From Aliiroseovarius sediminilitoris (GTDB lineage: Bacteria > Pseudomonadota > Alphaproteobacteria > Rhodobacterales > Rhodobacteraceae), in NCBI RefSeq assembly GCF_900109955.1, contig NZ_FOJB01000001.1, positions 2,232,001-2,296,000 of the forward strand: a stretch of DNA of 64,000 nucleotides, in the 5' to 3' direction. Numbering within the stretch: position 1 is the first letter of the stretch; each line of letters opens with the position of its first letter. The notes beneath the pieces were generated by a model. It was given only the letters and a program-made list of their open reading frames with translations, was not told the origin of the DNA and ran no database searches. The position numbers and the translations under genes are program-made. Below, piece after piece: positions 23,191 through 28,917 of the stretch.

Positions 23191-25137
23191 ATGAGCCAGA
23201 TATCCCTTACATTTCCTGACGGCAATTCACGCGAGTATGACGCGGGTATCACCCCTGCCGAGGTCGCCGCGAGCATCTCGAATTCGCTGGCGAAAAAGGC
23301 CATTTCTGCCACCGTGGACGGTGTCCATTGGGACATGCAGTGGCCGATCAAGGGAAATGCCGCAATCTCCATTCACACGATGAAGGACGAAACGCAGGCG
23401 CTGGAACTGATCCGGCACGACTTTGCCCACGTCATGGCGCGCGCGGTGCAGGAAATCTGGCCCGACGTGAAAGTCACCATCGGCCCGGTGATCGAGAATG
23501 GCTGGTATTACGACTTTGATCGTGAAGAACCATTCACGCCCGAAGATCTGGGTGCGATCGAAGCGAAGATGAAGGAAATCATCAACAAGCGTGAACCGGT
23601 GACGACCGAGATCTGGGAACGTGACCGCGCGGTCAAGTTCTATGAGGCCAACAACGAATCTTACAAGGTCGAACTGATCGAGGCCATTCCGGGCGATGAG
23701 CCCTTGCGCATGTATTGGCACGGACATTGGCAGGACCTTTGCCGTGGTCCACACCTGCAACATACAGGCCAACTGCCCGCCGACGCGTTCAAGCTAATGA
23801 ACGTGGCTGGTGCCTATTGGCGTGGCGACAGTGATCGCGCCATGCTGCAACGTATCTATGGCGTGGGTTTTCAAAACAAAGAGCAGCTGAAAAAACACCT
23901 GCACATGTTGGAAGAAGCCGCCAAACGCGACCACCGCAAGTTGGGACGCGAGATGAACTTGTTCCACATGCAGGAAGAAGCCCCGGGGCAGATCTTCTGG
24001 CACCCGAATGGCTGGACCATCTATACCGAGTTGCAAAACTACATGCGTCGCAAACAGCGCACAGGCGGTTATGTCGAGGTCAACACGCCTCAAGTGGTGG
24101 ATCGCAAGCTCTGGGAAGCCTCGGGCCATTGGGACAAGTATCAGGAGCATATGTTCATCGTCGAAGTGGACGAGGAGCACGCACGCGAAAAGTCGATCAA
24201 CGCGCTTAAGCCGATGAATTGCCCATGCCACGTGCAGGTCTATAATCAAGGTTTGAAAAGCTACCGGGAATTGCCGCTGCGCATGGCCGAATTCGGTTCC
24301 TGCAATCGCTATGAACCGAGCGGAGCCTTGCACGGGATCATGCGTGTGCGCGGCTTCACACAGGACGACGCGCATATTTTCTGCACCGAAGAGCAGATCG
24401 AAGAGGAATGCGCCCGATTCATCGACTTCCTGTCCTCTGTCTATAAGGATCTGGGGTTCGAGGAGTTCGAGATCATGTTCGCCACTCGGCCCGAAAAGCG
24501 GGTGGGAAGCGAGGAGTCGTGGGATCATGTCGAAGCCGCGTTGGAGAATGCGATCAAGAAAACCGGGCATAAATACACGCTCGACCCCGGCGAAGGGGCG
24601 TTTTACGGACCCAAACTGGATTTCAAACTGACCGACGCCATTGGCCGGGTCTGGCAATGCGGCACCTTTCAGGTCGATCCCAACCTGCCCGAACGCCTTG
24701 GTGCCGTCTATATCGGCGAAGATGGCGCGAAACATCTTCCCTATATGTTGCACCGGGCTTGCCTTGGGTCATTCGAACGATTCATCGGTATCCTGATCGA
24801 GAACTGGGCTGGAAAGCTGCCGTTCTGGCTGGCCCCGCGTCAGGTCGTGGTGGCATCCATCGTGTCCGATGCGGATGACTATGTGCAGCAGGTGGCTGAT
24901 GCGCTGAACGCCAAAGGGATCCGTGCCGAGGCGGACATTCGCAACGAAAAGATCAACTATAAGGTCCGCGAGCATTCAGTCGGCAAAGTGCCGGTCATCC
25001 TGGCTTGCGGCATGAAAGAAATCGAAGACGGCACGGTTTCGATGCGCCGACTGGGCGACAAGCATTCCAAAGTGCTGCCGCTGGACGAGGTTGTAACCAC
25101 GCTGGCGAAAGAAGCCACGCCCCCCGACCTGGCCTAA
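23191..25137 (+). CDS. thrS: Threonyl-tRNA synthetase
   Basis: 648 residues, full length. It has an N-terminal TGS domain ([23 protein letters not shown]), the editing domain with [17 protein letters not shown] and the Cys-containing [12 protein letters not shown], and a class II core with [18 protein letters not shown] (zinc Cys), [25 protein letters not shown] and [15 protein letters not shown]. The anticodon-binding domain closes the protein. ATG 23191 follows GAGGAG. A terminator 20 bases after the stop ends the transcript. No leader regulatory RNA was recognised. Confidence 0.98.
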
Positions 25138-25156
25138 GCAGATAGTATATTGAGCA

Positions 25157-25179
25157 CCCCCGCCACGAGCGGGGGTTTT
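25157..25179 (+). terminator. Rho-independent terminator after thrS
   Basis: CCCCCGC (25157-25163) pairs with GCGGGGG (25169-25175) across a 5-base loop, followed by TTTT. It lies 20 bases after the stop. Confidence 0.9.
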
Positions 25180-25539
25180 CATTGGTCAAGCGTTACAGAC
25201 CCTCACATTGCCCGTGACCGGAACGCCTTTTTGGCCGCCAACCCTGTAACAAAAGCTACATCGGCGGCATTTCTGTTGTAATTTTCGGCACGAAGCCTGA
25301 CCGAAAAAAGAACGATAATTCCTGTATCGACGAAATCCGCAGCCAAGAAACCCTTCAAAAACAGGGCTTCGAGGGGCTGAGTATCTTGATTTGCTGCATC
25401 TGTAACCCGATCGGCTGCCCTCACTACTGCTAACGGACCCGTGATTTACGCTTTCGTGAGTGGAGCGTGCGGCACCCTGCCCTCTACCCTTCTCTCACCG
25501 CCTCAGAGCGGTGTGAATAAAAACCCGAAAGGAAACTCG
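25180..25539 (+). promoter_or_regulatory. Long upstream region of the buf operon
   Basis: About 360 bases between the thrS terminator and bufA with no convincing gene. Bufferin operons in Caulobacter are under an ECF sigma factor whose -35 resembles GTAACC. Here TGTAACC occurs at 25401-25407 and TGTAAC at 25245-25250, but neither has a matching -10 at the expected distance by eye, so the promoter assignment is tentative. GGAAAC just before 25540 is the likely ribosome binding site. A short open frame on the minus strand (25203-25424, GTG start) has no signal supporting it. Confidence 0.35.
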
Positions 25540-25845
25540 ATGTCCAACAACATGAAATCTATCGCCGTTCTTGGCGCCGTCTCTGCCGCGGTTGCTGCAA
25601 CCGCAGTCCCCGCATTCGCCGATGGTGATCAAGAAAAATGCTACGGTGTTGCCCTTGCCGGTCAAAACGATTGTGCCGCTGGCCCCGGCACCACTTGCGC
25701 TGGCACCTCGACCGTCGATTATCAAGGCAATTCCTTTAAACTGGTGCCGAAAGGTTCGTGTGAAACCATGGAAGTCACTGATGCCGGAGGTATGATGCTG
25801 AAAGGCTCGCTGGAGCCTCTGGAAACCAACCTTCCTGCCAGTTGA
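25540..25845 (+). CDS. bufA: Bufferin precursor peptide BufA1-type (DUF2282)
   Basis: 101 residues. A Sec signal peptide (residues 1-27, cleavage after AFA) precedes a short Cys-rich core with four cysteines: C34 ([10 protein letters not shown]), C45 ([11 protein letters not shown]), C53 and C74 (KGSC), followed by an acidic tail. This is the DUF2282/BufA1 pattern. In Caulobacter such peptides are modified by the MNIO enzyme BufB with BufC, exported, and bind copper in the periplasm. ATG 25540 follows GGAAAC. It is followed by bufB, bufC and doxX in the same direction, which fixes the family assignment. Confidence 0.93.
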
Positions 25846-25861
25846 ATCCGGTTGCACTTTA

Positions 25862-25886
25862 CTCTGGCCGGACCCTCCGGCCAGAG
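25862..25886 (+). promoter_or_regulatory. Hairpin between bufA and bufB
   Basis: A perfect 10-base stem CTCTGGCCGG (25862-25871) and CCGGCCAGAG (25877-25886) with a 5-base loop, 16 bases after the bufA stop. There is no T run, so it is unlikely to be a full terminator. It may stabilise the upstream message or attenuate, giving more precursor peptide than enzyme. Confidence 0.65.
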
Positions 25887-25959
25887 CGTCGACCGCGCCT
25901 GCAAGGGGCGCATACCTTTCCAAGCGAACCTCTTGAGCCGACATTCGATGGAGCTTTCC

Positions 25960-26829
25960 ATGCTTGATATCGCCCATGACAACACACTGCCCAATGGGGC
26001 GGGAGTCGGCTATAAATCACAGCATTTCGCCGCCCTCATGGATGATCCTGGCACGGTCAGTTGGCTGGAAATTCACGCGGAAAACTACATGGGCGATGGC
26101 GGACGCCCCTTGGCCCAACTGCGCCACCTTGCCGAACGCTTTCCGATCTCGGTGCACGGGGTGGGCCTTTCTATTGGTGGAGAGACCCGCTTGGACCCGG
26201 AACATCTGGCGCGCCTGAAGACGTTGATCGACTGGCTGAACCCCGCGATGTTCTCCGAGCATCTGGCTTGGTCCACCCACGACGGTGCGTTCCTGAATGA
26301 TCTGTTGCCGCTACCTTATACAATTTCCACGCTTAACCGCATCGCGACGCATATCAACCAGGTGCAGGACCATCTTGGGCGCAAGATGCTTCTGGAAAAC
26401 CCGTCCTCCTATCTGGCTTTCGCTGAAAGCACGTGGTCAGAACCGGAGTTCCTGCGCGAAGTTGCCCAGCGCACCGGGTGCGGGCTGTTGTTGGATGTGA
26501 ACAATGTCTTTGTCTCTGCCACCAACCTTGAGTTTGACCCGCGTGCCTATATCGACACCTTCCCGCTTGATCAGGTCGAGGAGTTCCACCTGGCCGGCCA
26601 TGACGAAGATGCCGATGAATTGGGGCGCAAACTTCTGATCGACAGTCATGGAAAGCCGGTGGACGAACCGGTCTGGACCCTGTTTGATCATGTAATCGCA
26701 CATGCAGGTGCGCACCCCGTCCTTGTTGAATGGGACAACGACGTGCCGGAGTGGGAGGTGTTAGAGGCCGAGGCCGCGCGTGCCACGCGCCATATGGAAC
26801 CCGCACTGTCCGAACGGGTGCAGGCATGA
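25960..26829 (+). CDS. bufB: MNIO-family peptide-modifying enzyme BufB (DUF692)
   Basis: 289 residues, the DUF692 TIM-barrel family (multinuclear non-heme iron oxidative enzymes, as MbnB). Metal-ligand candidates lie in conserved blocks: EIHAENYMG (E41), SVHGVGLSIGG (H66), SEHLAW (H101), ENPSSYL (E146), LLDVNNVFVSA (D179), FHLAGHDED (H210, H214), DSHGKPV (D228, H230) and VEWDND (E257). It is predicted to oxidise cysteines of BufA to thiooxazole-type groups. ATG 25960 follows GGAG by 6 bases. Stop and bufC start overlap (ATGA). Confidence 0.93.
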   Translation: MLDIAHDNTLPNGAGVGYKSQHFAALMDDPGTVSWLEIHAENYMGDGGRPLAQLRHLAERFPISVHGVGLSIGGETRLDPEHLARLKTLIDWLNPAMFSEHLAWSTHDGAFLNDLLPLPYTISTLNRIATHINQVQDHLGRKMLLENPSSYLAFAESTWSEPEFLREVAQRTGCGLLLDVNNVFVSATNLEFDPRAYIDTFPLDQVEEFHLAGHDEDADELGRKLLIDSHGKPVDEPVWTLFDHVIAHAGAHPVLVEWDNDVPEWEVLEAEAARATRHMEPALSERVQA

Positions 26830-27614
26830 GCGACAGTGTGACCCTTCGCCACGCAGGCGATGTGACCGTGACCCAGGCGGCATTTTGCAAGGCGCTTCTT
26901 GATCCACGACAAAAGGTGCCCGACGGGCTGACCAACCCAGACGGGCACCAAGCCTTAAAACGTTTTTCGGTCTATCGAAACAACGTGGCGCACAGCCTAT
27001 CCGAGGCGATGCTGACCGGATTTCCGGTGCTGGCCAAGCTGGTGGGCGATGAATTCTTCCGCGAAATGGCGAAAGTTTACCTGCGCATTCACCCACCAGC
27101 CTCGCCTTTGATGATGCATTACGGCGCGGCCCTTCCCGGATTTCTGGAAAGCTTTCCGGGCACGCTGCATCTGAAATACCTGCCCGATGTTGCTCGGCTG
27201 GAACTGGCCCTGCGGCGCGCCTATCATGCCGCCGACGCCCAACCCATTGACCCAACGGCGCTGACCAAATTGGACCAGCCCGCCTTGATGCGGTCGCGGT
27301 TGCATATGTCGCCTGCCTGCGAAGTGCTCGTGACCAAGTGGCCCGCGAAGGCAATTTGGGATTTCAACATGAAAGATGGGCCACAACCAACGGGTGGTGC
27401 AGAGAATATCCTGATCAGCCGAGTGGGGTTTGACCCCGTGGCCGAGGTGCTGCCAAACGGCGCGGCGCCCTTCGTCCGGTCCTTGATCAAAGGGCGAAGC
27501 TTTGGCACGGCGCTTGGGCTGGCCACCGCAGACACGCCTGATATCGACCTGACCGCCACCGTGGCTGTCCTGATCGCAACGCAAGCCATAACCGGCATCG
27601 ACAAACCAGACTAG
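26826..27614 (+). CDS. bufC: BufC partner protein (DUF2063)
   Basis: 262 residues. The N-terminal DUF2063 domain is recognisable: QAAFCKALLDP, then RFSVYRNNVAHSLSEAMLTGFPVLAKLVGDEFFREMAKVYLRIHPPASPLMMHYG. The C-terminal half is the second helical/beta domain of the HvfC/BufC family. It partners the MNIO enzyme, probably by binding the precursor. It overlaps bufB by four bases, a sign of translational coupling and joint stoichiometry. ATG 26826. Confidence 0.9.
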   Translation: MSDSVTLRHAGDVTVTQAAFCKALLDPRQKVPDGLTNPDGHQALKRFSVYRNNVAHSLSEAMLTGFPVLAKLVGDEFFREMAKVYLRIHPPASPLMMHYGAALPGFLESFPGTLHLKYLPDVARLELALRRAYHAADAQPIDPTALTKLDQPALMRSRLHMSPACEVLVTKWPAKAIWDFNMKDGPQPTGGAENILISRVGFDPVAEVLPNGAAPFVRSLIKGRSFGTALGLATADTPDIDLTATVAVLIATQAITGIDKPD

Positions 27615-27634
27615 ATACTCGGAAGGATACCGCC

Positions 27635-28183
27635 ATGCACGCCCTGGCAACACTTTACAACCCGTTGGTCAATCTGGCCGAGCGGCTGGCCCCGGCCACC
27701 CTGCCCTCGCTCGCCCGGTTCACCTTCGCCGCAACCTTGCTTGGATATTTCTGGGCCTCGGCGCTGACCAAGCACGGCGACGGGGTGTTGGGTATCATCC
27801 AGCCCTCACTTGGGGCCTATGCGCAGATTTTCCCGAAAGCCATGGAGGCCGCATCTTATAATGTCAGCCAACTTGGCATGTTTCACTGGGCCGTGGTCGT
27901 CGCCGGCACGTTGGCCGAGTTCATTTTGCCGCTTTTGATCACCATCGGGTTGCTGACGCGTCTGGCCGCGCTGGGGATGATCGGTTTTGTGATCGTGCAA
28001 AGCCTGACCGACCTGTATGGCCATGGCGGCATTGACCAACCCGAAACGCTGGGCGCGTGGTTTGACCGCATCCCCGACAGTGTGATCCTGGATCAACGAC
28101 TGTTCTGGATGGTCGTGCTGGTAACACTTGTGTTGAAAGGTGCGGGACCGCTGTCCATCGACAGGCTGCTGAAGGTCCGCTGA
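27635..28183 (+). CDS. DoxX family membrane protein of the buf operon
   Basis: 182 residues with four hydrophobic helices (around residues 25-45, 80-102, 108-125, 150-168) and the DoxX pattern ARFTFAATLLGYFWASALTKHG at the N-terminus. DoxX proteins are frequent fourth members of bufferin operons and may provide electrons or assist at the membrane, but the role is not proven. It lies 20 bases after bufC. It is followed by a convergent small membrane-protein gene. Confidence 0.88.
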   Translation: MHALATLYNPLVNLAERLAPATLPSLARFTFAATLLGYFWASALTKHGDGVLGIIQPSLGAYAQIFPKAMEAASYNVSQLGMFHWAVVVAGTLAEFILPLLITIGLLTRLAALGMIGFVIVQSLTDLYGHGGIDQPETLGAWFDRIPDSVILDQRLFWMVVLVTLVLKGAGPLSIDRLLKVR

Positions 28184-28190
28184 CGCCCGA

Positions 28191-28547
28191 TCAATGCGGG
28201 TCGGGTTTCACGGCAACCAACGCCAGCAATCCACCCAACCCGGCCAAAGCGATCGGGAACATGGTGAACACGCCATAACCGAAGGCGAAATACATGCCTG
28301 CTGCGGACAACAGCAACAAAATGCCGCCCACTTGCGCAACAGACCGCGCCATTGCCCCACCGGCCAGCGCCAGTACCGGCGCGATCAGGGCAAACGCACG
28401 AATACGGCCCGGATGGTCGACCTGCTCGGCCAGATCGGGCAATTCACCCATCCGTGCGATCACCTCGGTATAGCCATAGCCGAAAAACCCGACGATCATG
28501 CCCCAGATCCCGGCGATGATCCCCAAAACCAATGCAGCGTTGCGCAT
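28191..28547 (-). CDS. Small hypothetical membrane protein
   Basis: 118 residues with an N-terminal helix (MRNAALVLGIIAGIWGMIVGFFGYG) and three further hydrophobic stretches, ending in VKPDPH. The pattern resembles DUF4064-type four-helix proteins, without strong motifs. GGAGG lies 8 bases before ATG 28547. It converges with doxX, ending 7 bases after its stop, so it is probably not part of the buf operon. Function unknown. Confidence 0.75.
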   Translation of the reverse strand: MRNAALVLGIIAGIWGMIVGFFGYGYTEVIARMGELPDLAEQVDHPGRIRAFALIAPVLALAGGAMARSVAQVGGILLLLSAAGMYFAFGYGVFTMFPIALAGLGGLLALVAVKPDPH

Positions 28548-28581: not shown

Positions 28582-28917
28582 TCAAGCGGCGCGCTCCAAC
28601 CATGTGTCGCGCGTTTTTGCGTCCCAACCCAACGTCAACCGATCACCATCCCCGATCACCGGGCGTTTCATCAAAGTCGGATGTTGTGTAAGTAAATCAA
28701 GGGGATCCCCCGCACGTTCCGTGTCCGACAATCCGCGCCACGTGGTCGAGCGTTTGTTGACCAAAGCATCCCCGAACGCCGTATGGAACCGCGCCAGATC
28801 ATCCGCATCCACCCCATCGGCGCGCACATCGACATAATCGAGCGGATACCCCGCGCCCTCAAGCGCCTTCACCGCCTTGCGGCACGTGTCACAATTCTTC
28901 AGCCCCCAAACGCGCAT
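28582..28917 (-). CDS. ArsC/Spx family (thioredoxin-fold) protein
   Basis: 111 residues of the ArsC-like (Spx/MgsR, YffB) thioredoxin fold. It starts MRVWGLKNCDTCRKAVKAL, with the redox CxxC at residues 9-12. The middle has DVRADGVDADDL, and LLTQHPTLMKRPVI gives the conserved Arg-Pro near residue 85. Full length for the YffB group, which are glutathione-dependent reductases of uncertain substrate. ATG 28917. It lies 34 bases upstream of the small membrane protein gene on the same strand. Confidence 0.85.
   Translation of the reverse strand: MRVWGLKNCDTCRKAVKALEGAGYPLDYVDVRADGVDADDLARFHTAFGDALVNKRSTTWRGLSDTERAGDPLDLLTQHPTLMKRPVIGDGDRLTLGWDAKTRDTWLERAA

Follow-up and report, generated by a model that had tools for sequence, protein, structure and literature searches.

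A four-gene cluster in the genome of Aliiroseovarius sediminilitoris matches, gene for gene, a known operon of Caulobacter vibrioides, and it raises the questions of whether it constitutes a complete bufferin operon and whether its control is of the same kind as that of its Caulobacter counterpart. We analysed the cluster within a 64,000-nucleotide stretch of the genome (the window, to which all position numbers refer). It consists of four open reading frames running in one direction on the forward strand between 25540 and 28183, with the stop of bufB and the start of bufC overlapping in the sequence ATGA:

25540 to 25845, forward strand: bufA, Buf1/DUF2282 precursor of 101 residues (PF10048, 88.9 bits; aligned with relatives)
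25960 to 26829, forward strand: bufB, MNIO maturase of 289 residues (PF05114, MbnB_TglH_ChrH, 354.3 bits; cut-off of 25)
26826 to 27614, forward strand: bufC, partner protein of 262 residues with a DUF2063 domain and an RRE-like C-terminal domain (PF09836, 87.6 bits; cut-off of 27.2)
27635 to 28183, forward strand: doxX, small membrane protein of 182 residues (PF07681, 23.9 bits against a cut-off of 23.6, a marginal match)

The first-pass annotation had described these four frames with this placement, strand, common direction, and ATGA overlap, as well as a 101-residue precursor with cysteines at positions 34, 45, 53, and 74, and each of these statements was borne out by the sequence. Profile searches, which the annotation had proposed as a check, place all four products above their Pfam cut-offs (DUF2282, MbnB_TglH_ChrH for bufB, DUF2063, and, barely, DoxX), and the DUF2282 match of the precursor, on which the annotation made its reading depend, is clear (cut-off of 22.4 bits). 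Its overall reading, that of a complete bufferin operon, is supported by the profile, structure, and active-site comparisons given below, and the operon can be specified as Buf1-type; its thiooxazole chemistry, copper binding, and export are predicted by analogy with published relatives. A BufA2-type precursor (as in Buf2, with 6 or 12 cysteines) does not fit, as the product has four cysteines and scores 20.2 bits against NF050166, whose cut-off is 60. Profile searches of the whole genome find one MNIO-family match and one DUF2282 match. Of the 64 relatives in which both frames are readable, 42 share the four-base bufB/bufC overlap; in the remainder, the start chosen by our script gives a longer one.

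By eye, residues 1 to 27 of BufA resemble a signal peptide, with Lys6, a hydrophobic stretch, and a signal-peptidase-like site (AFA|D), and the four cysteines (Cys34, Cys45, Cys53, and Cys74) are invariant in an alignment of six sequences, in which the L034 entry starts two codons early. Buf1 peptides are described as carrying modifications on the two central cysteines and a disulphide between the outer pair (PMC12452194); by this pattern, Cys45 and Cys53 would be the modified pair and Cys34 and Cys74 would form the disulphide. Past the DUF2282 domain, the C-terminal tail of BufA in this family reads GSL-x-x-L-x-R-D-L-P, and a loose version of this pattern is present in 80 of 83 BufA proteins of the family and in 4 of 25 from outside it. 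In 4 of the 80 best relatives (L050, L064, L066, and L108), a tandem pair of bufA genes precedes bufB.

BufB scores 381.6 bits against the NCBIfam model MNIO_BufB (NF050167), for which the curated equivalog cut-off is 310. In HvfB, N175, D242, and H244 are each reported to be essential (PMC13419390); mapped by way of structure 3bww, they fall on N181 (or N182), D228, and H230 of BufB, the ambiguity between N181 and N182 probably reflecting a numbering offset of one, and all four BufB residues are conserved at 97% or more in an alignment of 81 proteins. (Protein alignments took those relatives with a readable complete frame: 81 for BufB, 65 for BufC, and 76 for DoxX.) For BufC, searches of the PDB with the sequence, alone or as a profile, returned zero relatives. 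An AlphaFold2 model of BufC, built from 24 sequences and with a mean pLDDT of 90.2, was used as a Foldseek query and matched, at E < 0.001, TglI (8hi7 and 8hci) and NGO1945 (3dee), with TM scores of 0.50 to 0.56 by query length; both proteins are described as containing an RRE-type domain and acting as partners of MNIO enzymes (PMC12452194).

Three characterised systems frame this assignment. (i) The Buf1 operon of Caulobacter vibrioides (CC3254 to CC3257) is reported to agree with it in all four genes and in their order, encoding DUF2282, DUF692/MNIO, DUF2063, and DoxX proteins (PMC3511200). (ii) The hvfABC system of Haemophilus influenzae (oxazolin/captophorin) is described, like the operon here, as combining an MNIO enzyme and a DUF2063-RRE partner with a Sec-signal precursor, and its product as a thiooxazole (PMC13097082, PMC12452194, and PMC13419390), a modification that is predicted in our case. 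Its precursor, however, is built of EGKCG repeats rather than a DUF2282 domain, and the NCBIfam models for HvfC (40.6 bits against BufC, cut-off of 142), HvfX (25.1 against DoxX, cut-off of 80), and HvfB all stay below their cut-offs here. (iii) TglHI of Pseudomonas syringae pairs an MNIO enzyme with a partner of the same folds, TglI being the best structural match of the BufC model, but is described as performing pearlin chemistry on a C-terminal cysteine of a precursor that lacks a Sec signal (PMC12452194).

A search with BufB recovered at least 552 confirmed relatives, the best 80 of which were used to compare loci. By their titles, these 80 belong to genera that we take to be members of the Rhodobacteraceae or Paracoccaceae, or to alphaproteobacterial bins, and the closest are Aliiroseovarius (89% identity in BufB for L032). 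By tblastn, bufA was found in 79 of these 80 loci, bufB and bufC in all 80, and doxX in 78, and the gene order recurs; thrS, which ends upstream of the operon at 25137, was found in the fetched stretch of 75, counts that are subject to several loci being cut by contig ends and to the approximate ends of the thrS and hydrolase queries. DUF2282 matches occur in 106 of 149 genomes of the same family (our own included) and in 47 of 142 genomes of the class. Such counts overstate the number of independent events, because the lineages compared are not independent of one another and the 80 loci are those closest to ours among at least 552. With its gene set kept in nearly all of the best relatives and DUF2282 in 106 of the 149 family genomes, the operon is an ordinary one for the family: bufferins, a class of copper-buffering peptides described only recently, are common, and the operon adds a further case from a group in which they are near-standard equipment. 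The neighbourhood is also partly shared, as two genes convergent to doxX (28191 to 28547, a 118-residue membrane protein, and 28582 to 28917, an ArsC-family protein) recur in 67 and 76 of the 80 relatives, respectively. Three loci have a Hint-domain-like product, recognised by eye, between thrS and bufA (L044, 3395 to 4417; L064, 3000 to 4085; and L108, 3100 to 4122).

The explanation that we consider very probable as a whole combines a Buf1-type operon and its route of maturation, export, and copper binding with a palindrome-controlled promoter and a role for a hairpin between bufA and bufB. BufA would be made in the cytoplasm with a Sec signal; BufC would bind this precursor and hand it to BufB, an iron enzyme that, going by published Buf1 members, would oxidise Cys45 and Cys53 to thiooxazoles. 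Sec would then export the peptide, which would be cleaved after residue 27 or so and closed by the Cys34–Cys74 disulphide, and the mature form would sequester excess copper in the periplasm, with DoxX as a putative conserved membrane accessory. That a thiooxazole peptide of bufferin type is made here chiefly for another metal, or for a stress other than copper, is rather unlikely. In Caulobacter, exposure to chromate, dichromate, and cadmium is reported to induce genes of the SigF-dependent buf operons (PMC3511200), fusions of MerC with bufferins are taken to suggest other metals (PMC12452194), and none of the four neighbouring genes scanned with Pfam is a copper gene. The bufferins described so far, however, sequester copper (PMC12452194), and the precursor, maturase, and partner here are of the same families; as for metals other than copper, CC2906 and CC3255 are stated not to be essential for metal stress resistance (PMC3511200). 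We retain copper sequestration as the probable task.

The operon is of a kind already known, and the less expected part, and the one worth following, is a conserved, putative control site upstream of it. The likeness to Caulobacter stops short of regulation, because the genome has no NrsF match and the conserved upstream element is a different one. In Caulobacter, the operon is reported to depend on SigF, encoded beside it (CC3253) together with a DUF1109 negative regulator, the anti-sigma factor (CC3252), and to have the SigF promoter motif GTAACC-N16-CGAA (PMC3511200). A search of the A. sediminilitoris genome for the anti-sigma factor NrsF (PF06532) gave no match, although the same search finds NrsF in the Caulobacter control. 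The product of CC3252 is presumably this same NrsF. It is very improbable that SigF-type ECF control operates here nonetheless, with the genes for the sigma and anti-sigma factors lying away from the operon: the one candidate before bufA, a GTAACC at 25402 with CTAC after a 16-base spacer, is two mismatches from the published motif, and the window contains 46 matches of this quality, about what chance predicts (41.9). Moreover, GTAACC is not at the corresponding place in the other seven aligned Aliiroseovarius loci, and the lack of an NrsF match in this genome counts against such control as well.

What occupies this region instead is the following element:

25431 to 25459, forward strand: tandem palindrome, two copies of TNACG-N4-CGTGA with a period of 15; candidate buf operator, from conservation

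Its 27-base core is present without mismatch at 25433 to 25459 and nowhere else in the genome. With up to two mismatches allowed, the core matches the window at this place alone, once on each strand with the two matches overlapping, where 0.05 matches would be expected. Genome-wide at this tolerance there are eight matches, against five for the reversed pattern, so weak matches carry no meaning. Among the upstream regions of bufA in the window and 78 relatives (excluding L058 and L100, whose bufA or upstream region runs off the contig end), 64 of 79 contain the palindrome with at most three mismatches, versus 0.05 per 79 in shuffles. In the 149 family genomes, a search at no more than one mismatch gave 129 matches; 17 of the 18 perfect matches and 24 of the 111 one-mismatch matches lie before a same-strand DUF2282 gene, in 41 genomes. 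Within a search distance of 400 bases, every one of these linked sites falls 153 to 205 bases ahead of the DUF2282 match. The other 88 matches are not before bufA (the reversed pattern gives 13 in all, counted by hand). Since 15 of the 17 unlinked matches inspected (L120 included) lie in open frames of at least 200 codons, compared with 4 of 13 linked sites, most unlinked matches appear to be matches in coding sequence. In L120 (genome G063), a one-mismatch tandem palindrome sits in the gap between bufA and bufB. Outside the family, none of the 25 loci scored has the palindrome, and in 9 of the 25 a SigF-type GTAAC-N16/17-CGAA lies upstream; the loci taken were those with the best scores and do not cover all 47 genomes, and 3 of an initial 28 (L185, L190, and L191) were dropped when their cysteine core was not found.

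Within the family, the palindrome and NrsF were not found together. A divergent sigma-NrsF gene pair lies upstream of bufA in 6 of the 80 best relatives (L038, L068, L082, L092, L094, and L098), between thrS and bufA in the five loci with thrS in view; none of the six has the palindrome, and five have GTAACN-N16-CGAA before bufA. Given the site in 64 of 79 regions, drawing six without it has a probability of 2e-5, common descent ignored. No compared locus carries both NrsF and the palindrome. Across the 149 family genomes, 41 have a linked site, 22 have an NrsF match (21 over the cut-off), and none has both; among the 106 with DUF2282, the numbers are 41 and 17, for which the chance of zero overlap is 1e-4, again ignoring common descent and with 2 of the 17 NrsF matches weak (G118, partial, and G129, below the cut-off). 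Neither the site at up to three mismatches nor a neighbouring NrsF is present in a further 13 of the 83 regions upstream of bufA (9 of 79 counting first copies); among these 13, four belong to second bufA copies, and L040, L044, L081, and L095 have decayed-looking sites with four or five mismatches. Five loci with the site (L056, L083, L086, L090, and L106) also match a loose SigF pattern near −226, at the thrS end.

The palindrome might be kept for a reason other than bufA, such as a function in the 3′ region of thrS or as an RNA element. We regard this as unlikely. In its favour is the presence of thrS upstream in most loci; against it, linked sites keep to the narrow interval ahead of DUF2282, the palindrome persists where thrS is 625 or 1,208 bases away (L104 and L047, respectively), and it is missing where sigF-nrsF adjoins bufA. 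From these patterns, the palindrome seems to stand in for control of the Caulobacter SigF-NrsF type, and a regulatory rewiring of the bufferin operon by a factor acting at this site is probable. We lean further, with somewhat better than even confidence, towards the view that many bufferin operons of the Rhodobacteraceae are controlled by an undescribed, nearly operon-specific, metal-responsive regulator, rather than SigF-NrsF, bound to a pair of tandem palindromes immediately before the promoter, and that the two modes of control are mutually exclusive and have replaced one another at one and the same chromosomal location, after thrS. The palindrome offers a concrete handle on how the stress that makes bufferin necessary may be sensed in much of the family, a useful one because the known sensor, NrsF, is without a match here and present in 22 of the 149 family genomes. 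Our literature search found no paper describing such a tandem site. A search near the genome's eight best CopR-like response regulator genes gave no tandem site at up to three mismatches; the one-mismatch half sites present there (at L157, L158, L160, and L164) we take as chance.

Between thrS and bufB, the sequence offers several further signals:

25156 to 25176, forward strand: terminator-like hairpin after thrS, with an 8-pair stem and a T-rich tail
25485 to 25490, forward strand: possible −10 box, TACCCT, found by eye 25 bases past the palindrome
25529 to 25536, forward strand: ribosome-binding-like AAGGAAAC before bufA
25862 to 25886, forward strand: hairpin between bufA and bufB, with a perfect 11-bp stem and no U tail (z-score of −2.76 for 25840 to 25965)

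Transcription would most likely start about 45 bases ahead of bufA. The TACCCT box was not picked up by a sigma-70 consensus scan; a TA-rich box at a similar distance can be seen by eye in many of the bufA upstream regions. As this box lies 25 bases past the palindrome and no good −35 element was seen between the two, a bound factor would sit at the edge of the polymerase site, a position that would suit an activator, a repressor also being possible. On the strength of conservation, we place the promoter under a putative factor binding 25431 to 25459 and replacing the SigF-NrsF of Caulobacter. The ribosome-site position reads AAGGAAA or AAGGAAG in five of the seven other aligned Aliiroseovarius loci. 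The commonest 7-base word in the bufA upstream regions, TGTAACA (57 of 79), was considered as a promoter element and rejected; on our reading, it is in many loci the last codon and stop of thrS plus the bases after. Other copies, including that of the window at −295, are without this explanation.

Rfam searches of 25100 to 28300 gave nothing at the gathering score, and terminator-like sites are about as many in the stretch as chance predicts (5 against 4.3). Excluding the four loci with two bufA copies, a perfect stem of at least nine pairs lies between bufA and bufB in 37 of 75 loci, as compared with 0.2% of shuffles; the other 38 are without one, including the nearest relative (L032), which has six pairs only. 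The sequence of the stem varies from genus to genus, so that what is kept may be its structure instead. On the simplest reading, the hairpin would cause partial termination or protect the mRNA, probably holding the precursor message above that of the enzyme and yielding more precursor than enzyme.
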